A stretch of 64,000 bases of DNA from an uncultured Saccharospirillaceae bacterium (GTDB lineage: Bacteria; Bacteroidota; Bacteroidia; Flavobacteriales_D; CAJJDF01), in NCBI GenBank assembly GCA_950054195.1, contig CATLPG010000008.1, positions 1-64,000 of the forward strand, given 5' to 3'. Position numbers and translations under genes: made by a program. Positions 3,201-64,000 of the stretch are shown here, in pieces. Each line of letters opens with the position of its first letter. Within the stretch, counting starts at the first letter, position 1. Below the pieces are notes generated by a model. The model made no database searches. It worked only from the letters and a program-made list of their open reading frames with translations, and was not told the DNA's origin.

Positions 3201-4791
3201 AAGTGGATTTATAAGTGGTGAAATTAACGTGAGTGGAAATCCCAAAAAGCCAATTTTAAACGGTACAACTAAACTTAATCAAGTAAAATTCACCATTGAT
3301 TTCTTAAATACCTCATACTATTTTAATGGAGACTTAAACGTAACCGAAGATGGTTTCTTAACTAAAGACAACATTAAAATTAGAGATGAAAAAGGAAATT
3401 TTGCGGTCTTTAATGGAGCTGTATTTCATGACAATTTCAGTGATTTCAATTTTGACATCCCAATATTTATACCTGATTCAATTTATGTGAAAGGAAATGA
3501 GACAAGAGCGCAACGTTTTTCTAATGCTAAAGGAAAGCCAAACTCCTTATTAGTATTAAATACTACAGATAAAGAAAATAAAGATTTTTACGGGGAGGTT
3601 TATGGCCGTGGAACCGTAAACATATCTGGATACCAAGACGAATTAAACATTTCCATTGATGTTAAAGCTGCTAAAGGGTCTAAATTCACTTACCCCATGT
3701 ACGGAAGTAATGAAGTCACTCTGCCTGATTGGGTAAACTTTACTGCTTCAGTCTCCGATTCTCTTGAAACCGATGTTGATTTAACCGGTATTACGTTAGA
3801 CATGAATATTACTGCAACACCAGATGTAGAACTAGAGATTATTTTTGACCCCGTACTCGGAGATAAAATTACAGCCAGAGGTACTGGAAACATTTTTATT
3901 GGCATCAATAGAGATAGTGACGTGGAGATGAAAGGAAAATACACCATTGACGAAGGAGATTACCTCTTTACACTAGGTCTATTAAACTTTGAAAATCTGT
4001 TGAACAAAAAATTTAAAGTACAGCAAGGAAGCACAATTACTTGGTTTGGTGATCCAGCAGAAGCCGATATAAATATTAATGCTATTTATGAGCTAAAAGC
4101 TTCACTCTACGATATTATGGCTGTTTACAATAGCGATCGTAAAAATGAATATAAAAATAGAACGGACGTTATTTGCTATATGAAGTTAACGGGGAATCTA
4201 ATGCAACCAAACATTGATTTTGCCATCGAATTACCTCGAGCAGATCAAGAAGCTAAAACCGCACTCCAAAACATTATCAAATCAGAAGAAGATTTAAACA
4301 AACAAGTATTTTCTTTATTAGTATTAAACCGATTTATTCCTCCTGCTAACTCAATTAGTAATGAAGATCGTAGTGGTTCTGGAGCAGTTAGTACAACCGC
4401 TAGTGAACTACTCTCTAATCAAGTGAGTAGCTGGCTATCGCAACTTAGTACTGGGGTTGATATTGGTTTCAATTATCGTCCCGGAGACAATATTTCAAAC
4501 GATGAGGTTGCTCTAGCCCTGTCTACAGAGTTACTCAATGATAGACTAGTGATTAACTCAAACTTTGGAGTATCTTCTGGGAATGATATCAATCAAAATC
4601 CAAACAGCTTTATTGGTGATGCAAGCGTGGAGTACAAACTAAACAAAGACGGTACATTTAGAGTTCGGATTTTCACTCGTACCAACGAATTTGATATCAC
4701 ACAACAATCTCAAGGTGCAACCACTCAAGGTGCTGGTCTTTTCTATAAAAAAGGATTCAATACCTTCGAAGAACTTTTTGGGAAGCCTTAA
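295..4791 (+). CDS. Translocation/assembly module TamB-like protein (DUF490), no canonical start codon
   Basis: A protein of about 1,498 residues: one N-terminal membrane anchor (roughly residues 12-32, GLLSFEGILVILLVGILSL) followed by a long beta-rich periplasmic region and a C-terminal DUF490/TamB domain (from about residue 1200, with AEADININAIYELKASL and the closing LFYKKGFNTFEELF). TamB-like proteins bridge inner and outer membranes and act in outer-membrane protein assembly or lipid transport. The first ATG/GTG/TTG in frame is TTG at 526, which would remove the anchor and about 77 residues that read as genuine family sequence. The open frame begins at 292, and ATC at 295 followed by Lys-Lys-Phe is the most natural start by position. 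ATT at 307 is an alternative, as is a sequence error replacing an ATG. The coding call is firm; the start is not. Confidence 0.85.
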   Translation: MKKFISIVSHLGLLSFEGILVILLVGILSLRFHATQTFFARKLTDKLSNELNTYINIDRVNIHPFSHVFIEDVTVVDLHQDTILKTKSLDIGIWGVSLKENTIDLASVTLNQADVKLIKPKNQKGFSFQFIIDYFDSDKPKKKKNKEGFTITGKQIKLKDCNVYFIDHRSDAEFYGMDYTDLAFRNIDLSVTNFKNKGTKTTATINHLSTKEKSGANIEHLAGNLSLDTSYIRIDSLTLVTDKSSIRSKYLAFEFDNFEDFEDNFEEKVTIKTHFKRSSLNFQDIVYYTSFFEGLDREIDLSGKFDGTISDFKTTNLFLKLDKNTSFQGDVAMQGLPDTDSTTFQATIDYFTTTKRELSNIQTPPFTENKFIEIPEEIDSAGVISINGTIAGRFDDVNGDINVSSNYGVLATKSRFWYNQKTKNGHFKGNVKTDRLNVGPILPESTLGRISGDLNTNLIWSKKNGIDANVAGSVNQIEFNNYDYKKIKINGNINDDFFRGKVNAADPNADFVFDGIIDLRDTIPLFNFKSNIKRLDLMALNLSNDSVRRIICGEFTINGEGSNLDNSYGYAIIENFNYYQDGKEYEASNIEIVSSPKEEGKIINLTSSIADATIEGNFTLVDLPKCFDFIGSKVVPTLYEGRDTILLSREDFTYNVLVKDYTPIETFFTPGITVAKNTFITGDFHDLDETFSLLIKSKFINYNNLEIKQIDGFVKKPDETVTVNFDIKELKVSDRLAFTKVLAKTTIRENFIKPSISWYVKGTEDYGYLEGDGYWYSIDYFDMIILPSYFKYNDVVWKSGEMAALAVNKDEIIFDSLSISNNKDERIIIDDTISSEPDKLLHIVIENFGLENINPFLPNNEVTYEGTINAKAEIGNIYGTPSLKSTIKIDSLKTNEEWIGNVSFKSEWTAKDEITCDGSLIRNKEKAFDFSGAYRPYDEQNSLDIVCKMDNTPVAFANSYLNDDGISDLSGFISGEINVSGNPKKPILNGTTKLNQVKFTIDFLNTSYYFNGDLNVTEDGFLTKDNIKIRDEKGNFAVFNGAVFHDNFSDFNFDIPIFIPDSIYVKGNETRAQRFSNAKGKPNSLLVLNTTDKENKDFYGEVYGRGTVNISGYQDELNISIDVKAAKGSKFTYPMYGSNEVTLPDWVNFTASVSDSLETDVDLTGITLDMNITATPDVELEIIFDPVLGDKITARGTGNIFIGINRDSDVEMKGKYTIDEGDYLFTLGLLNFENLLNKKFKVQQGSTITWFGDPAEADININAIYELKASLYDIMAVYNSDRKNEYKNRTDVICYMKLTGNLMQPNIDFAIELPRADQEAKTALQNIIKSEEDLNKQVFSLLVLNRFIPPANSISNEDRSGSGAVSTTASELLSNQVSSWLSQLSTGVDIGFNYRPGDNISNDEVALALSTELLNDRLVINSNFGVSSGNDINQNPNSFIGDASVEYKLNKDGTFRVRIFTRTNEFDITQQSQGATTQGAGLFYKKGFNTFEELFGKP

Positions 4792-4833
4792 GTTTCAATC
4801 ATCAACCCTTTCAAGAAAAGACTAGCAACCCGA

Positions 4834-5643
4834 TTAAAAGGGCCAAGCACCATTACTAGGAGAACGCTTTCCCTTTTTATTTCCAGATAAATTAATCCCA
4901 CATGTTTTAAACCCAAATTCAAAGAAAAGTGTTGGAGTTGTTCTTTTTTGCGAAAATTGATTGTTAAAACTTTCTCGGCTTACCTCTGCTCCACTAGCAT
5001 CCACAGTTGTTTCTGTTAAGTATAAATCGTAATGATCTGTAAATGGCTTGAAGTTTCGTTGAAAATTAATCCCTACAAAAAAGGCTCCTATTGGCTTGAT
5101 GTAATACTCCATACTAAGACCTCCCATAACACCCAACTGATCCATCTTTACAAAACTTTTATTTGGATTTTTATGGTAATCAAAAGTTATCTTTTTAGTG
5201 TATTCATCATTCCAATCCATTGATGAATAACCTTTATTTGTAACATAGTTCAGGTTAGCATACATCCCTACATTTGCTAAAACATAAAAGTTTTTAAATG
5301 GACTGTATCGTCTAAAATAATTAAGTGGTATTCGAACATCTTTCCTTGTACTGTATCCGCTTAACTCATTATTTGAAAAATTAAACTCATTAAAATTTAT
5401 GGATGGAAAATAGCTGGGCCCATGTATAGATACACCATCATATACTTCTCTAGTTTGTATACCTAGCGTTAAACTGGAACAATCGCACCAAGAGATATGA
5501 AAATCAACTCCCCTATAATAATCTCCTTCTCCAAAACCTAATTGATTATCCACTGATAAGCGATAACCAAAATCTAAATAAACCTGACTTTTGCCATGTA
5601 AGGCAAAACTAAATAATCCTATTAGTACAATTAACTTTTTCAT
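4834..5643 (-). CDS. Secreted outer-membrane beta-barrel-like protein of unknown function
   Basis: A 269-residue protein with a clear signal peptide (MKKLIVLIGLFSFALHGKSQ). The mature part has alternating aromatic and polar strands (YRRYSPFKNFYVLANVGMYANL, GGLSMEYYIKPIGAFFVGINFQRNF) and ends near a FEFGFKTCGINL strand, which fits an 8-12 stranded outer-membrane barrel. There is an extra short basic tail after the last strand. I do not recognise a named family. It converges with the TamB-like gene and sits 54 bases downstream of the sugar transferase, so it could share that transcript. Confidence 0.75.
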   Translation of the reverse strand: MKKLIVLIGLFSFALHGKSQVYLDFGYRLSVDNQLGFGEGDYYRGVDFHISWCDCSSLTLGIQTREVYDGVSIHGPSYFPSINFNEFNFSNNELSGYSTRKDVRIPLNYFRRYSPFKNFYVLANVGMYANLNYVTNKGYSSMDWNDEYTKKITFDYHKNPNKSFVKMDQLGVMGGLSMEYYIKPIGAFFVGINFQRNFKPFTDHYDLYLTETTVDASGAEVSRESFNNQFSQKRTTPTLFFEFGFKTCGINLSGNKKGKRSPSNGAWPF

Positions 5644-5697
5644 CTTTTTTCCTTTTGATAGTAGTCACGACAAAAAGCAAAAGATGGTTGGTGAGTT

Positions 5698-6279
5698 TTA
5701 AATTATTTTTTTAATTGTTCTGAAAATCAATTGTAAATCAAAGAAAAAGCTTTGTTTTTTAATATATACTAAATTAAGTTTGAGCTTATGAGGCATAATT
5801 TCTTTGATATATGTTTCCTCTGGGTTAGTAGATTTAGACAGCACTTCATTTTCATTGATGTATTCAATCGAAGCCAAATCGGTTAAACCTGGACGAACAG
5901 CCAATACTTTTTTCTGTTCTTCGTTGTAAAGAGCCACATATTTAGGAACTTCCGGTCTTGGACCTACAACACTCATATCTCCCTTTAAAATATTAAACAA
6001 CTGTGGGATTTCATCTAATTTATACTTTCTAAGAGTATGACCAACCTTTGTAATTCGAGGGTCTTTACCAACGGTTAGTTGACCTTTACTTTCTGAAGCA
6101 GGACGCATTGTTCTAAACTTAAGCAATTGAAAATGTTTACCATCTTTTCCTACACGGGTTTGAGAAAAAAAAGCTCCACCTTTACTATCCATGATGATAA
6201 GTAAACTTATAACTCCAAAAAAAGGAAGTATGAGTATAATCACCAACAGAGAAGATAATATGTCAAAAATTCTTTTCAA
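5698..6279 (-). CDS. Polyprenyl-phosphate sugar-1-phosphate transferase (bacterial sugar transferase family)
   Basis: At 193 residues this is only the catalytic core of the family, the size of PglC rather than the longer WcaJ/WbaP proteins. An N-terminal hydrophobic re-entrant helix (ILSSLLVIILILPFFGVISLL) is followed by the signature motifs: FFSQTRVGKDGKHFQLLKFRTM, the catalytic Asp-Glu in YKLDEIPQLFNI and SVVGPRPE. Such enzymes move a sugar-1-phosphate from a UDP-sugar onto undecaprenyl phosphate at the inner face of the inner membrane, the first step of O-antigen, capsule or exopolysaccharide synthesis. No glycan cluster surrounds it. It follows pabA by one base, so it is probably the last gene of a folP-pabA-sugar transferase transcript. 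Confidence 0.92.
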   Translation of the reverse strand: MKRIFDILSSLLVIILILPFFGVISLLIIMDSKGGAFFSQTRVGKDGKHFQLLKFRTMRPASESKGQLTVGKDPRITKVGHTLRKYKLDEIPQLFNILKGDMSVVGPRPEVPKYVALYNEEQKKVLAVRPGLTDLASIEYINENEVLSKSTNPEETYIKEIMPHKLKLNLVYIKKQSFFFDLQLIFRTIKKII

Positions 6280-6280
6280 A

Positions 6281-6847
6281 TTAATACGTGTGAGTTATCC
6301 AGTTTTTAATCATTTGTTTTCCTTGAGGCGTCATAATTGATTCTGGATGAAACTGAACTCCAATTAAAGGGTACTCTTTATGCTCCATTGCCATAATTAC
6401 TTTTTCCTCTTTACTAGTAGCTAGTATATTCCATTTGGAAGAAACGGCTTTAACTGCCCATGAATGGTAACGCCCTACCTCTACTTCATCACTCATTCCA
6501 TTAAACAAATAGTGCGTATTATCCACTTGAACCATAGAACTCATGCCATGATAAATGTTGTTCATATTATAAATAGCGTCACCAAAATAAGTGGCTAATG
6601 CCTGATGCCCCAAACACACACCAAAAATAGGCTTTATCGCATGAAATCTCTCAATTACTTCCAACATCTTGCCTGCATCTTTAGGTAAACCTGGACCTGG
6701 AGACAATACAATACGATCGTAAGTAGCAAGTTCATCAAGCTCAAACTCATCGTTTCGTTTTACTGTTACCTCAACATCAAATGCTTCCAAATAATGGACT
6801 AAATTATACGTAAACGAGTCGTAATTATCTACTAAAAAGATCTTCAC
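6281..6847 (-). CDS. pabA: Glutamine amidotransferase, aminodeoxychorismate/anthranilate synthase component II
   Basis: This is a 188-residue class I glutamine amidotransferase of normal length. The catalytic triad is visible: Cys78 in PIFGVCLGHQA and His167/Glu169 in VQFHPES, with the oxyanion region LSPGPGLPKDAG near residue 48. It supplies ammonia from glutamine to PabB or TrpE acting on chorismate. The start codon overlaps the folP stop by four bases, which favours the folate role (PabA, p-aminobenzoate synthesis) over tryptophan, although in many bacteria one subunit serves both. No pabB or trpE lies in the window. Confidence 0.92.
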   Translation of the reverse strand: MKIFLVDNYDSFTYNLVHYLEAFDVEVTVKRNDEFELDELATYDRIVLSPGPGLPKDAGKMLEVIERFHAIKPIFGVCLGHQALATYFGDAIYNMNNIYHGMSSMVQVDNTHYLFNGMSDEVEVGRYHSWAVKAVSSKWNILATSKEEKVIMAMEHKEYPLIGVQFHPESIMTPQGKQMIKNWITHTY

Positions 6848-7674
6848 GCTAAGGTTAATTGGTCATGTAACATTATAACTTCTTTCGCCTCTTTTACATC
6901 GTGCACACGTAAAATATTAGCTCCTCTTTCTAAAGCGAACATATGAAGAGCTGTTGTTCCGTTTAACGCTTCTGAAGCTTGGGTATCTAGTACTTTATAT
7001 ATCATTGACTTTCTAGAAACACCCACCAATAGAGGAAGTTCAAAAACTGAAAACAGCTCTAATTCTCGCAGGAGCTTGTAATTTTGCTCGATTGTTTTTC
7101 CAAATCCGAAACCAGGGTCAATAAGGATATCATTTGCACCTCTCGTTTTTAACTGATATACCTTTTCTGATAGCTCCCTGATAATATCTTTTGTTACATG
7201 TTCGTACGCTGGACTTTTCTGCATGGTTTGAGGAGTACCTTGCATGTGCATCATAATGTAAGGAACGTTTAACTTCTCCACCAAATCAAACATGGCTGGA
7301 TCTAAATTACCTGCAGAAATATCATTAATAATAGCTGCACCTGCCTCAATGGACTGTTTAGCAACTTCACTCCTAAAGGTATCAATAGAAAGTATGGCTT
7401 CTGGAAATGCTTTTACGATTGCTCTTATTGCTGGAAGTACACGATTCAACTCTTCTTTTAAAGAAACTTCCGTTGCATTTGGTTTGGATGAGTAACCTCC
7501 GATATCGAGTATATCAGCACCAGCTACAAGCATTTCTTCTGCTCGTTTTACAACTGTATCAATAGCCTCGTATTGCCCACCATCATAAAAAGAATCGGGA
7601 GTAACATTCAAAATCCCCATCACTTTAGGAGAATCAAGATTTAAAAGTTTACCTTTGCAGTTAATGGTCATCAT
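6844..7674 (-). CDS. folP: Dihydropteroate synthase
   Basis: This TIM-barrel enzyme joins p-aminobenzoate to 6-hydroxymethyl-7,8-dihydropterin diphosphate in folate synthesis. The family motifs are present: MGILNVTPDSFYDGG near the N-terminus, DILDIGGYSSKPNA, SIDTFRSEVAKQSIEAGAAIINDISAG, and DPGFGFGKTIEQN followed by VGVSRKSMI. The frame is open up to 7716, but I chose the tandem ATGs at 7674/7671 (MMTINCKGKLLNL), because the extra residues upstream would overlap the divergent DUF1599 gene and do not look like the family. The protein is then about 276 residues. pabA follows with a four-base overlap. Confidence 0.95.
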   Translation of the reverse strand: MMTINCKGKLLNLDSPKVMGILNVTPDSFYDGGQYEAIDTVVKRAEEMLVAGADILDIGGYSSKPNATEVSLKEELNRVLPAIRAIVKAFPEAILSIDTFRSEVAKQSIEAGAAIINDISAGNLDPAMFDLVEKLNVPYIMMHMQGTPQTMQKSPAYEHVTKDIIRELSEKVYQLKTRGANDILIDPGFGFGKTIEQNYKLLRELELFSVFELPLLVGVSRKSMIYKVLDTQASEALNGTTALHMFALERGANILRVHDVKEAKEVIMLHDQLTLA

Positions 7675-62425: not shown

Positions 62426-62806
62426 ATGAAACAAGCAATTCATATTAAAAACGCCCCAAAACCTGTAGGATCATATAGCCAAGCTATTCTTCAAGGAAAC
62501 ATGCTTTTTATTAGCGGCCAAATCCCTATGGACCCTTTTACAAACCAATTGATTAAAGGTTCTATTGAAGAACAAGCTAAGCAGGTAATGGAAAATATCA
62601 TGGCCTTGCTAGATGCTGTTGGATTAAATGAAACACATGTAATTAAATGTTCTATCTTTTTAACGGATATGAATAATTTCTCAAAGGTTGATGCAATCTA
62701 TTCAAGGTATTTTTCAGGAGTTTTTCCTGCTAGAGAAACTGTTGAAGTAGCAGGATTACCAAAAGGGGTTGATGTTGAAATTTCGGCAATAGCAGTAAAA
62801 GAATAA
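62426..62806 (+). CDS. ridA: RidA family enamine/imine deaminase
   Basis: A 126-residue protein of the YjgF/RidA family: VGSYSQAILQGNMLFISGQIPMDP, Arg in FPARETVEVAGLPKG and the closing VDVEISAIAVKE, with the NIMALLDAVGLNETHVIKCSIFLTDMNNFSKVDAIY central part. It hydrolyses reactive 2-aminoacrylate formed by PLP-dependent dehydratases. Length and motifs are normal. The Lgt-like gene starts only four bases after its stop, so they are probably on one transcript. Confidence 0.95.
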   Translation: MKQAIHIKNAPKPVGSYSQAILQGNMLFISGQIPMDPFTNQLIKGSIEEQAKQVMENIMALLDAVGLNETHVIKCSIFLTDMNNFSKVDAIYSRYFSGVFPARETVEVAGLPKGVDVEISAIAVKE

Positions 62807-62810
62807 TTCA

Positions 62811-63569
62811 TTGAGTATTCCTTTTGAACCTGAGGTATTGGGAGTTACCATAAATGTCCATTTAACTTTAGAGTATTTGGCTTTTATTTTGGCCTTTAGG
62901 TATTATGTTTTTTTAAGAAACAGAAGGAAAGACACTATATCAAAGACAAACCGTTTATCCATAATTATTGGAGCCACATTAGGTGCACTAATTGGATCAA
63001 GAGTTATTGGTTTGCTTGAAAACCCTTTACTCATCTCATCTTACAATTATGTAGAGTTATTAAACACCAAAACCATTATGGGAGGTTTGTTTGGTGGGCT
63101 AATAGGAGTTGAAATAGCTAAAAATATCATTAAAGAAGGACATTCATCAGGAGATTTATTTACATTACCCATTATAGTTGGAATTTTTATTGGTAGAGTA
63201 GGATGTTTTTTATCTGGAACAAACGAATTTACCTATGGAGTTGAAACCGACTTTTTTCTATCTATGAATCTAGGTGATGGTGTTCAGCGTCATCCTATTA
63301 CTCTTTATGAACTCGTGTTTTTACTTCTTCTTTTCATCATTGTAAAATACTATTTTAATCAGAAGGTCAATTACAAAGGGAAACTGTTTAAGCTGTTCAT
63401 GATCTTGTACTTTGGTTTTCGCTTTCTTATTGAGTTTTTAAAGCCCAATGAATTTCTACTAGGAGGTTTAAGTACTATTCAATGGTTGTGTTTATTGTGT
63501 TGGATTTACTATCTTCCGTTTATATCAAAATCAATCGCTTATGCCAACAAGAAAGTACACATACTATGA
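62811..63569 (+). CDS. Lgt-family (prolipoprotein diacylglyceryl transferase-like) membrane protein, atypical
   Basis: A 252-residue protein with about seven membrane helices. The Lgt fold is suggested by the motif order MGGLFGGLIGVEIAKN, IGRVGCFLSGTNEF, RHPITLYELVF and FRFLIEFLKP. Canonical Lgt transfers diacylglycerol from phosphatidylglycerol to the lipobox Cys of prolipoproteins. Here the HGGL motif, whose His is important in E. coli, reads FGGL, and the GRxxNFxN signature reads GRVGCFLS. The conserved Arg of GR and the Arg in FRFLIEF remain. It is shorter than typical Lgt (about 270-290). The start is TTG, and the 3' end overlaps the radical SAM gene by 29 bases. It is likely a paralogue with a different lipid or protein acceptor. 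Confidence 0.8.
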   Translation: MSIPFEPEVLGVTINVHLTLEYLAFILAFRYYVFLRNRRKDTISKTNRLSIIIGATLGALIGSRVIGLLENPLLISSYNYVELLNTKTIMGGLFGGLIGVEIAKNIIKEGHSSGDLFTLPIIVGIFIGRVGCFLSGTNEFTYGVETDFFLSMNLGDGVQRHPITLYELVFLLLLFIIVKYYFNQKVNYKGKLFKLFMILYFGFRFLIEFLKPNEFLLGGLSTIQWLCLLCWIYYLPFISKSIAYANKKVHIL

Positions 63570-64000
63570 TTTTACACTAAGTCTTTGTCCTGAGTGTCTG
63601 AAAAGAATTGATGCTAAGATTGTTTTTGAAAATGATCAGGTGTTTATGCTTAAAACATGTAAGGATCACGGAGCTTTTAAAGTGTTAATTGCTGATGATG
63701 TACCTTATTACAAAAACATTAGGAATTACAACAAACCCTCTGAAACACCATATACCTTTAACACAAAAACACATTATGGTTGCCCATATGATTGTGGTTT
63801 ATGTCCAGATCATGAACAGCACTCGTGTTTAACCGTTGTTGAAGTAACTGATCGGTGTAATTTAACTTGCCCTACCTGTTATGCAGGGTCATCTCCCACG
63901 TATGGAAGACATAGAACGTTGGATGAGGTAAAGTCCATGCTGGATACCATTGTTAAGAATGAAAAGGAACCAGATGTCGTTCAAATAAGTGGTGGTGAAC
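63541..64000 (+). CDS. Radical SAM enzyme, MJ0619/tetraether-synthase-like, N-terminal part
   Basis: The gene runs off the right edge after 153 codons. Visible Cys motifs: a rubredoxin-like pair C16-x2-C19 (SLCPECLKRIDA) with C40 in KTCKDHGAF; C81-x3-C85-x2-C88 in GCPYDCGLCPDHEQHSC (also C96); and the canonical radical SAM CX3CX2C at C106/C110/C113 in TDRCNLTCPTCYAG, followed by the SAM-binding VQISGGE at 151-153. This layout resembles the archaeal MJ0619/Tes group, which joins lipid chains by a radical C-C bond. ATG 63541 fits and lies inside the Lgt-like gene. Membership of radical SAM is firm; the lipid role is inferred from family and neighbour. Confidence 0.85.
   Translation, partial: MPTRKYTYYDFTLSLCPECLKRIDAKIVFENDQVFMLKTCKDHGAFKVLIADDVPYYKNIRNYNKPSETPYTFNTKTHYGCPYDCGLCPDHEQHSCLTVVEVTDRCNLTCPTCYAGSSPTYGRHRTLDEVKSMLDTIVKNEKEPDVVQISGGE

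Follow-up and report, generated by a model that had tools for sequence, protein, structure and literature searches.

Lgt paralogues and radical SAM (rSAM) enzymes with the architecture of the archaeal tetraether-forming enzyme GDGT-MAS/Tes (MJ0619) are encoded together in many Bacteroidota, alongside miniproteins that end in a helix followed by Gly-x-Cys and a few residues (hereafter tails); the three are linked in the genome and inherited together. The cassette was recognized at the end of a 64,000-nucleotide stretch of DNA, the window, which covers positions 1 to 64,000 of contig CATLPG010000008.1. It comprises an Lgt paralogue, a Tes-like rSAM and at least one small membrane protein whose last helix ends in Gly-x-Cys near the C-terminus. 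The three-part unit appears to be undescribed, its enzymes being variants of known families, and no description of an Lgt-rSAM pair or of a C-terminal lipobox was found in open-licence papers. The reading that we prefer, tentatively and somewhat short of calling it probable, is that the tail Cys receives a lipid from the Lgt paralogue and that the Tes-like rSAM works on the chains of this lipid or of its donor.

The gene for the Lgt-family membrane enzyme (62811..63569, + strand) begins with TTG and encodes 252 aa. It overlaps the rSAM gene on the same strand by 29 bases; this overlapping pair had been reported by the first-pass annotation of the DNA, and our analysis confirms both open reading frames and the overlap. 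Because the rSAM gene runs past the end of the window, 63541..64000 encodes the N-terminal 153 of 462 aa; we obtained the complete gene from beyond position 64000, where it extends to 64929 on the 78,327-base contig (63541-64929). Directly downstream, beyond the window, lie the genes of two tails, both of them two-helix membrane proteins: the first, of 67 aa, occupies contig positions 64930-65133 and ends LGFCTGSL, and the second, of 65 aa, occupies 65212-65409 and ends LGVCGGMMV, each terminus consisting of LG[VF]C plus 4-5 residues. A third small open reading frame of 79 aa (contig C8:65506-65745, likewise beyond the window) follows the tail genes; it lacks a C-terminal Gly-x-Cys, was not counted as a tail and is perhaps a decayed or diverged tail copy. 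On the other side, a RidA-family (L-PSP) gene (window 62426-62806) ends 4 bases ahead of the Lgt-like start codon. This gene is probably incidental to the cassette, because it does not recur among the genes that neighbour the relatives.

Scanning the genome collection yielded at least 347 relatives. The best 80 of them are 79-84% identical and come mostly from Flavobacteriaceae, with some from Saprospiria and Cytophagia. At all 83 loci formed by these 80 and three more, an Lgt-like gene lies upstream of the rSAM gene on the same strand, mostly overlapping it, and unrelated genes are inserted between the two in five loci. Once more divergent lineages were added, the Lgt-like gene was found to adjoin the rSAM gene on the same strand in 96 of 98 loci. 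The same number of relatives (96/98) have the Lgt-like gene, the rSAM and a tail together, and the other two, genomes G093 and G329, keep both enzymes on separate contigs. Retention of both enzymes in G093 and G329 even though they are unlinked argues for function over mere hitchhiking. Among 395 genomes of the phylum, the rSAM clade is present in 31, all 31 of which have the Lgt-like clade, and the Lgt-like clade is present in 32, of which 31 have the rSAM; given shared ancestry, these 31 genomes are not 31 independent events. A profile of the two-helix tails matches 13 of the 395 genomes, every one of which has both enzymes, two weak matches in long open reading frames being taken as chance. 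The functional pairing of the two genes proposed by the first-pass annotation is thus borne out by their adjacency and co-occurrence. The annotation had also named two findings that would count against it, an rSAM clustering with a peptide- or cofactor-modifying family away from Tes, and related genomes carrying the genes apart; neither is clearly the case, the genes being separated in no more than two genomes, both of which still contain the two enzymes. We considered the possibility that the genes are chance neighbours and rejected it, as the linkage persists through insertions and the co-occurrence holds even when the genes are unlinked. One genome (G076:C10:163727-164458) has an Lgt-like gene of 49% identity without the rSAM and without an adjacent tail, a natural case of loss.

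The Lgt-like protein contains the LGT domain (PF01790, 94 bits with a cutoff of 24.9, E 1.2e-26) and scores 48.4 bits with the NCBIfam lgt equivalog model, for which the cutoff is 118.9. Structure prediction shows an Lgt fold for this enzyme and a GDGT-MAS fold for the rSAM. The AF2 model of the Lgt-like protein (pLDDT 91.7) has E. coli Lgt (5azb, TM 0.64) as its sole significant PDB match. The Lgt signature reads GRVGCFLSG (63192..63218, + strand) where E. coli has GRLGNFING; the equivalent of Arg143 is kept and Asn146 is replaced by Cys, both the Arg and the Cys being present in 97/97 relatives. The equivalents of Arg143, Gly154, Glu202, Tyr235 and Arg239 are kept in all 97, and Gly142, Gly145 and Glu243 are also retained. 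Unlike E. coli Lgt, nearly all of the 97 relatives have Tyr26 replaced by His, His103 by Met or Val, and Asn146 by Cys. Six residues essential in E. coli Lgt are of note here: Arg143, Gly154 and Arg239 are kept, and Tyr26, His103 and Asn146 are altered (PMC13251419), so that the window protein, with Y26H, H103M and N146C, has changes at three of the six; it also carries R246K. Natural replacements of H103 and N146 are recorded, and a second mycobacterial Lgt with Y26H/N146C is presumed to be weakly active (PMC13251419). Judged by its residues, the Lgt-like protein is likely to be a transferase with a changed acceptor; it may conceivably have lost transferase activity. An ordinary second copy of Lgt was rejected as an identity for this protein, since the clade is distinguished by residues of its own and is found together with the rSAM, and another Lgt homologue is encoded on a different contig of the same genome. 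A short Lgt head domain, considered as a hint of a passenger-free substrate, was dropped from the argument because genuine Bacteroidota Lgts are about equally short there.

Clustering of the neighbouring genes revealed one more family tied to the pair, namely two-helix membrane proteins of 60-80 aa in 1-3 copies, which Pfam and NCBIfam do not name. Their genes mostly start at the rSAM stop codon or a few bases from it. Loci that seemed to lack a tail carry divergent ones, some of which have additional helices (83-111 aa). Altogether, 96 of 98 loci encode a protein with a terminal helix followed by Gly-x-Cys and a short remainder (93 by an automatic rule, with L105, L169 and the G071 locus added by inspection). 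The two loci in which no tail was found near either enzyme gene are those with unlinked enzymes. Gly occupies position -2 in 128 of 134 tails, and the mean net charge of these 134 is +4 before the last helix and 0 after the Cys; the tails were selected for a Cys near the end, which makes the presence of the Cys a matter of construction, and the Gly at -2 and the charge pattern are independent of this selection. Equally independent are the unselected column counts of the two-helix family, where conservation peaks at the Gly and Cys columns (113 and 111 of 119 sequences). By the positive-inside rule, this distribution of charge assigns the tail Cys to the periplasmic side. The other proteins encoded in the loci include 113 with a C-terminal helix; G.C near the end occurs in 3 of them, all of which are cassette tails. 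A few paralogous tails lack the Cys.

The tails resemble substrates of the lipobox/signal peptidase II pathway in having a positive region, a hydrophobic helix, Leu or Phe at -3, Gly at -2 and a Cys that is periplasmic by prediction. In contrast to the lipobox, this signal stands at the C-terminus, the Cys is mostly followed by only 4-8 residues, and position -1 is usually Ile or Val, not Gly, Ala or Ser; a small -1 residue is mostly lacking, as is the mature N-terminal Cys that cleavage would leave. With a tail as query, no larger proteins bearing the tail were found in its own genome. We also compared the tails with the NCBIfam 'lipo-invert' C-terminal anchoring domain (NF058595) and rejected that identity: the best tail scored 15.8 bits, with a curated cutoff of 37, and the model, which matches membrane segments everywhere, gave weak matches in 223 of 345 genomes and passed its cutoff in none. 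The existence of this model may mean that C-terminal anchors have been considered by someone before. At the other end of many tails, the N-terminus carries a conserved L-E-V-G-N-L motif (e.g. L057:9397-9588) that is predicted to be periplasmic and that also appears in the tail of G071 (L219:1439-1672), which is different in other respects.

By sequence, the closest solved structure for the rSAM is GDGT-MAS/MJ0619 (PDB 7tol, E 8.5e-73). The AlphaFold2 model of the rSAM (pLDDT 80, pTM 0.85) matches 7tol over its whole length (TM 0.80, E 9e-39), and the runner-up structure is SkfB (TM 0.39). Residues 355-400 are modelled with low confidence, and the Tes lipid-pocket helices may fall within this part. 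We compared metal ligands with those described for GDGT-MAS (PMC9433317), scoring conservation in 97 core relatives. C16-x2-C19 (63586..63597, + strand; 94-97/97) forms the first half of a rubredoxin-type CX2C...CX2H site and pairs with C40/H43 (63658-63669, + strand), matching the rubredoxin ligands C9X2C12X20C33X2H36 of GDGT-MAS (PMC9433317). The N-terminal auxiliary 4Fe-4S site, C81-x3-C85-x2-C88-x2-H91 (63781..63813, + strand; 97/97), corresponds to the GDGT-MAS cluster ligands C73/C77/C80/His (PMC9433317). It is followed by the radical SAM cluster motif proper, C106-x3-C110-x2-C113 (63856..63879, + strand; 97/97), within a PF04055 match. The extra N-terminal Cys pair and the second CX3CX2C set picked out by the first-pass annotation are therefore C16/C19 and C81/C85/C88 with H91, respectively. 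The equivalents of Gln268 and Arg275 (GDGT-MAS numbering) are kept in about 97/97 core relatives, and the labile Met439 of the C-terminal cluster has its equivalent in M411, present in 97/97 core relatives and replaced by Thr in the distant clade described below.

Despite this shared architecture, the rSAM differs from Tes in several respects. The full protein scores 296 bits with the NCBIfam Tes equivalog (NF045702), below the cutoff of 450, and its best-scoring NCBIfam model, ahead of Tes, is the TrsS radical SAM (seleno)protein (NF045646), which it covers almost wholly at 348 bits, under the cutoff of 490. The third-cluster Cys residues are placed otherwise: the Cys of the Tes HxxC and PFC are absent, PFC having become PFE, and C319, C390, C391 and C428 are invariant and would presumably ligate a cluster. 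Tyr459 of Tes, completely conserved across 1000 archaeal homologues (PMC9433317), is Ile431 in 97/97 core relatives. In a maximum-likelihood tree, a 100/99 branch parts the clade of the window rSAM from MJ0619 and bacterial Tes, MJ0619 grouping with the proteins of two further loci, L155 and L156. The cassette rSAM is further set apart from GDGT-MAS/Tes by its occurrence with an Lgt-like protein and tails. Because of the score below the cutoff, the tree position and the different ligand residues, we ruled out Tes orthology, and the rSAM is a sister family with Tes architecture, separate from Tes. The earlier designation as an MJ0619/Tes-like enzyme therefore stands for the architecture over the full length and fails for membership of Tes itself.

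Divergent lineages provide the strongest sign that the Gly-x-Cys protein belongs to the system. In three genomes with rSAMs of 38-40% identity, the order is rSAM, DUF4395, Lgt and tail; the tail gene overlaps that of Lgt, and its product ends in LLFGACIIGLGGYSLFH or a similar sequence. In the very divergent G153, the order is Lgt, tail (...LLSGGMCIFLPQPL) and rSAM, at 4687-5502, about 5490-5833 and 5668-7413, respectively, of locus L154 (G153:C81, reverse-complement coordinates), and in G071 the tail gene lies between the Lgt-like and rSAM genes. In three divergent lineages, the tail gene and the Lgt gene overlap or are directly adjacent. The order varies, yet the three parts stay together, which points to the tail as a member of the system, perhaps tied most closely to the Lgt paralogue. 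The DUF4395 (PF14340) membrane protein encoded between rSAM and Lgt in the distant clade (L151 7073-7513, L153 5370-5855) has several C-terminal Cys (...GGGCC...) and is possibly a fourth cassette component there. The rSAM of G153 lacks the N-terminal CX3CX2C cluster and is still accompanied by Lgt and by a tail with Gly-x-Cys.

Lgt attaches diacylglycerol to the thiol of a Cys located where a helix reaches the periplasm, the cytoplasmic side of this helix being positively charged. The tails have this lipobox-like arrangement at the C-terminus, from which we infer that the Lgt paralogue would take a diacylglyceryl (or related) group from phospholipid and place it on the thiol of the tail Cys, just as Lgt modifies a lipobox Cys. 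Cleavage by signal peptidase II would not follow, because a bulky residue precedes the Cys and almost nothing comes after it. The rSAM is built like an enzyme that takes lipid chains up into a tunnel and links them at their ends; on this ground it would act, from the cytoplasmic side, on hydrocarbon chains, coupling, methylating or otherwise functionalising the chain ends of either the donor lipid before transfer or the tail-bound lipid. The product would be a modified lipid-anchored membrane hairpin. The tails, which lay beyond the sequence open to the first-pass annotation, shift the likely target, which it had put as a membrane lipid or a lipidated protein, from free membrane lipid toward a lipidated C-terminal tail. 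Several observations count against this lipidation reading. A cytoplasmic rSAM and a periplasmic Cys pose a topological problem, unless chain ends at the bilayer midplane can be reached; three of six essential Lgt residues are changed, and the tail -1 residue differs from that of the lipobox; the rSAM scores slightly better to TrsS than to Tes; and there are the few Cys-less paralogous tails and the two genomes with enzymes and no tail found near either gene. A bolder form of the lipidation reading, which we consider unlikely, is that the diverged Lgt puts a thioether lipid on a C-terminal 'reversed lipobox' of multi-helix miniproteins and the Tes-like rSAM joins the ends of its chains to a further lipid or tail, yielding membrane-spanning, covalently cross-linked lipid-protein hairpins in Bacteroidota. 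If lipidation of the tail is true, lipoprotein-type lipidation extends beyond the N-terminal Cys, and common aerobic Bacteroidota such as Flavobacterium, Tenacibaculum, Winogradskyella and Riemerella possess a protein-linked branch of Tes chemistry. Many of the cassette hosts are cultured strains, which makes the question directly testable.

One to three tandem, fast-diverging small open reading frames beside an rSAM also resemble RiPP precursors, and it is possible, if rather doubtful, that the rSAM modifies the tail peptide (for example by a thioether, a methylation or a C-C link near the Cys), with the Lgt paralogue either attaching a lipid or doing no more than presenting one. The better score to TrsS than to Tes fits such a cassette, and so does DybA, a RiPP-lipoprotein hybrid of Bacteroidota (PMC12636315) and the nearest parallel found in the literature, which is likewise small, ribosomally made, and formed by both a metalloenzyme step and Cys lipidation; DybA differs in having an N-terminal lipobox, in relying on the general Lgt/LspA pathway and in being made by an MNIO enzyme rather than an rSAM. 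However, the full-length GDGT-MAS fold stands against a peptide maturase, as RiPP maturases reach a TM of only 0.39. Moreover, no leader region is seen in the tails, and their conserved residues lie in the helices and at the periplasmic end, far from the cytoplasmic rSAM.

Alternatively, and close to what the first-pass annotation had in mind, both enzymes could make an unusual membrane lipid, for example a membrane-spanning one, with the miniproteins as accessory subunits and not substrates. Membrane complexes commonly contain tiny hydrophobic subunits, and the Tes architecture of the rSAM agrees with a free-lipid product, as does the proposal that bacterial Tes homologues act in brGDGT synthesis; iso-branched chain ends are said to match isoprenoid ends (PMC8941075). 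We give this pathway a similarly modest chance, since Lgt chemistry needs a Cys thiol acceptor and the main conserved feature of the tails is a Cys where the acceptor would sit; the tails, moreover, are multi-copy and very different between lineages, unlike usual subunits, and the rSAM falls outside the Tes clade. A quite improbable explanation is that Gly-x-Cys is a redox or metal site and that the cassette matures a membrane electron-transfer protein, the Lgt paralogue being devoid of transferase activity. The single invariant Cys of the tails, the three changed essential Lgt residues, the inclusion of TrsS in the rSAM family and the addition of the Cys-rich DUF4395 protein in one lineage would be consistent with this role, but the catalytic Arg143 and Arg239 are kept in 97/97 Lgt-like proteins, a helix end with a single Cys makes a poor metal site, and no conserved redox partners were seen near the cassette.

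The separation of the cassette rSAMs from Tes also bears on how bacterial 'Tes homologues' are listed. Loose criteria have been used for these (E < 1e-50, identity > 20%, length > 400 aa; PMC8941075), which cassette rSAMs, with E 8.5e-73 to MJ0619, would probably pass, so that some Bacteroidota may be wrongly listed as potential branched tetraether makers. The Tes and cassette clades can be told apart by gene content and by Tyr459. One Bacteroidota rSAM, at locus L155 (G123:C91, 5864-7318), passes the NCBIfam Tes cutoff with 494 bits against 450 and has no adjoining Lgt gene; by its sequence, genome G123 is a candidate producer of genuine tetraether or membrane-spanning lipids within Bacteroidota.
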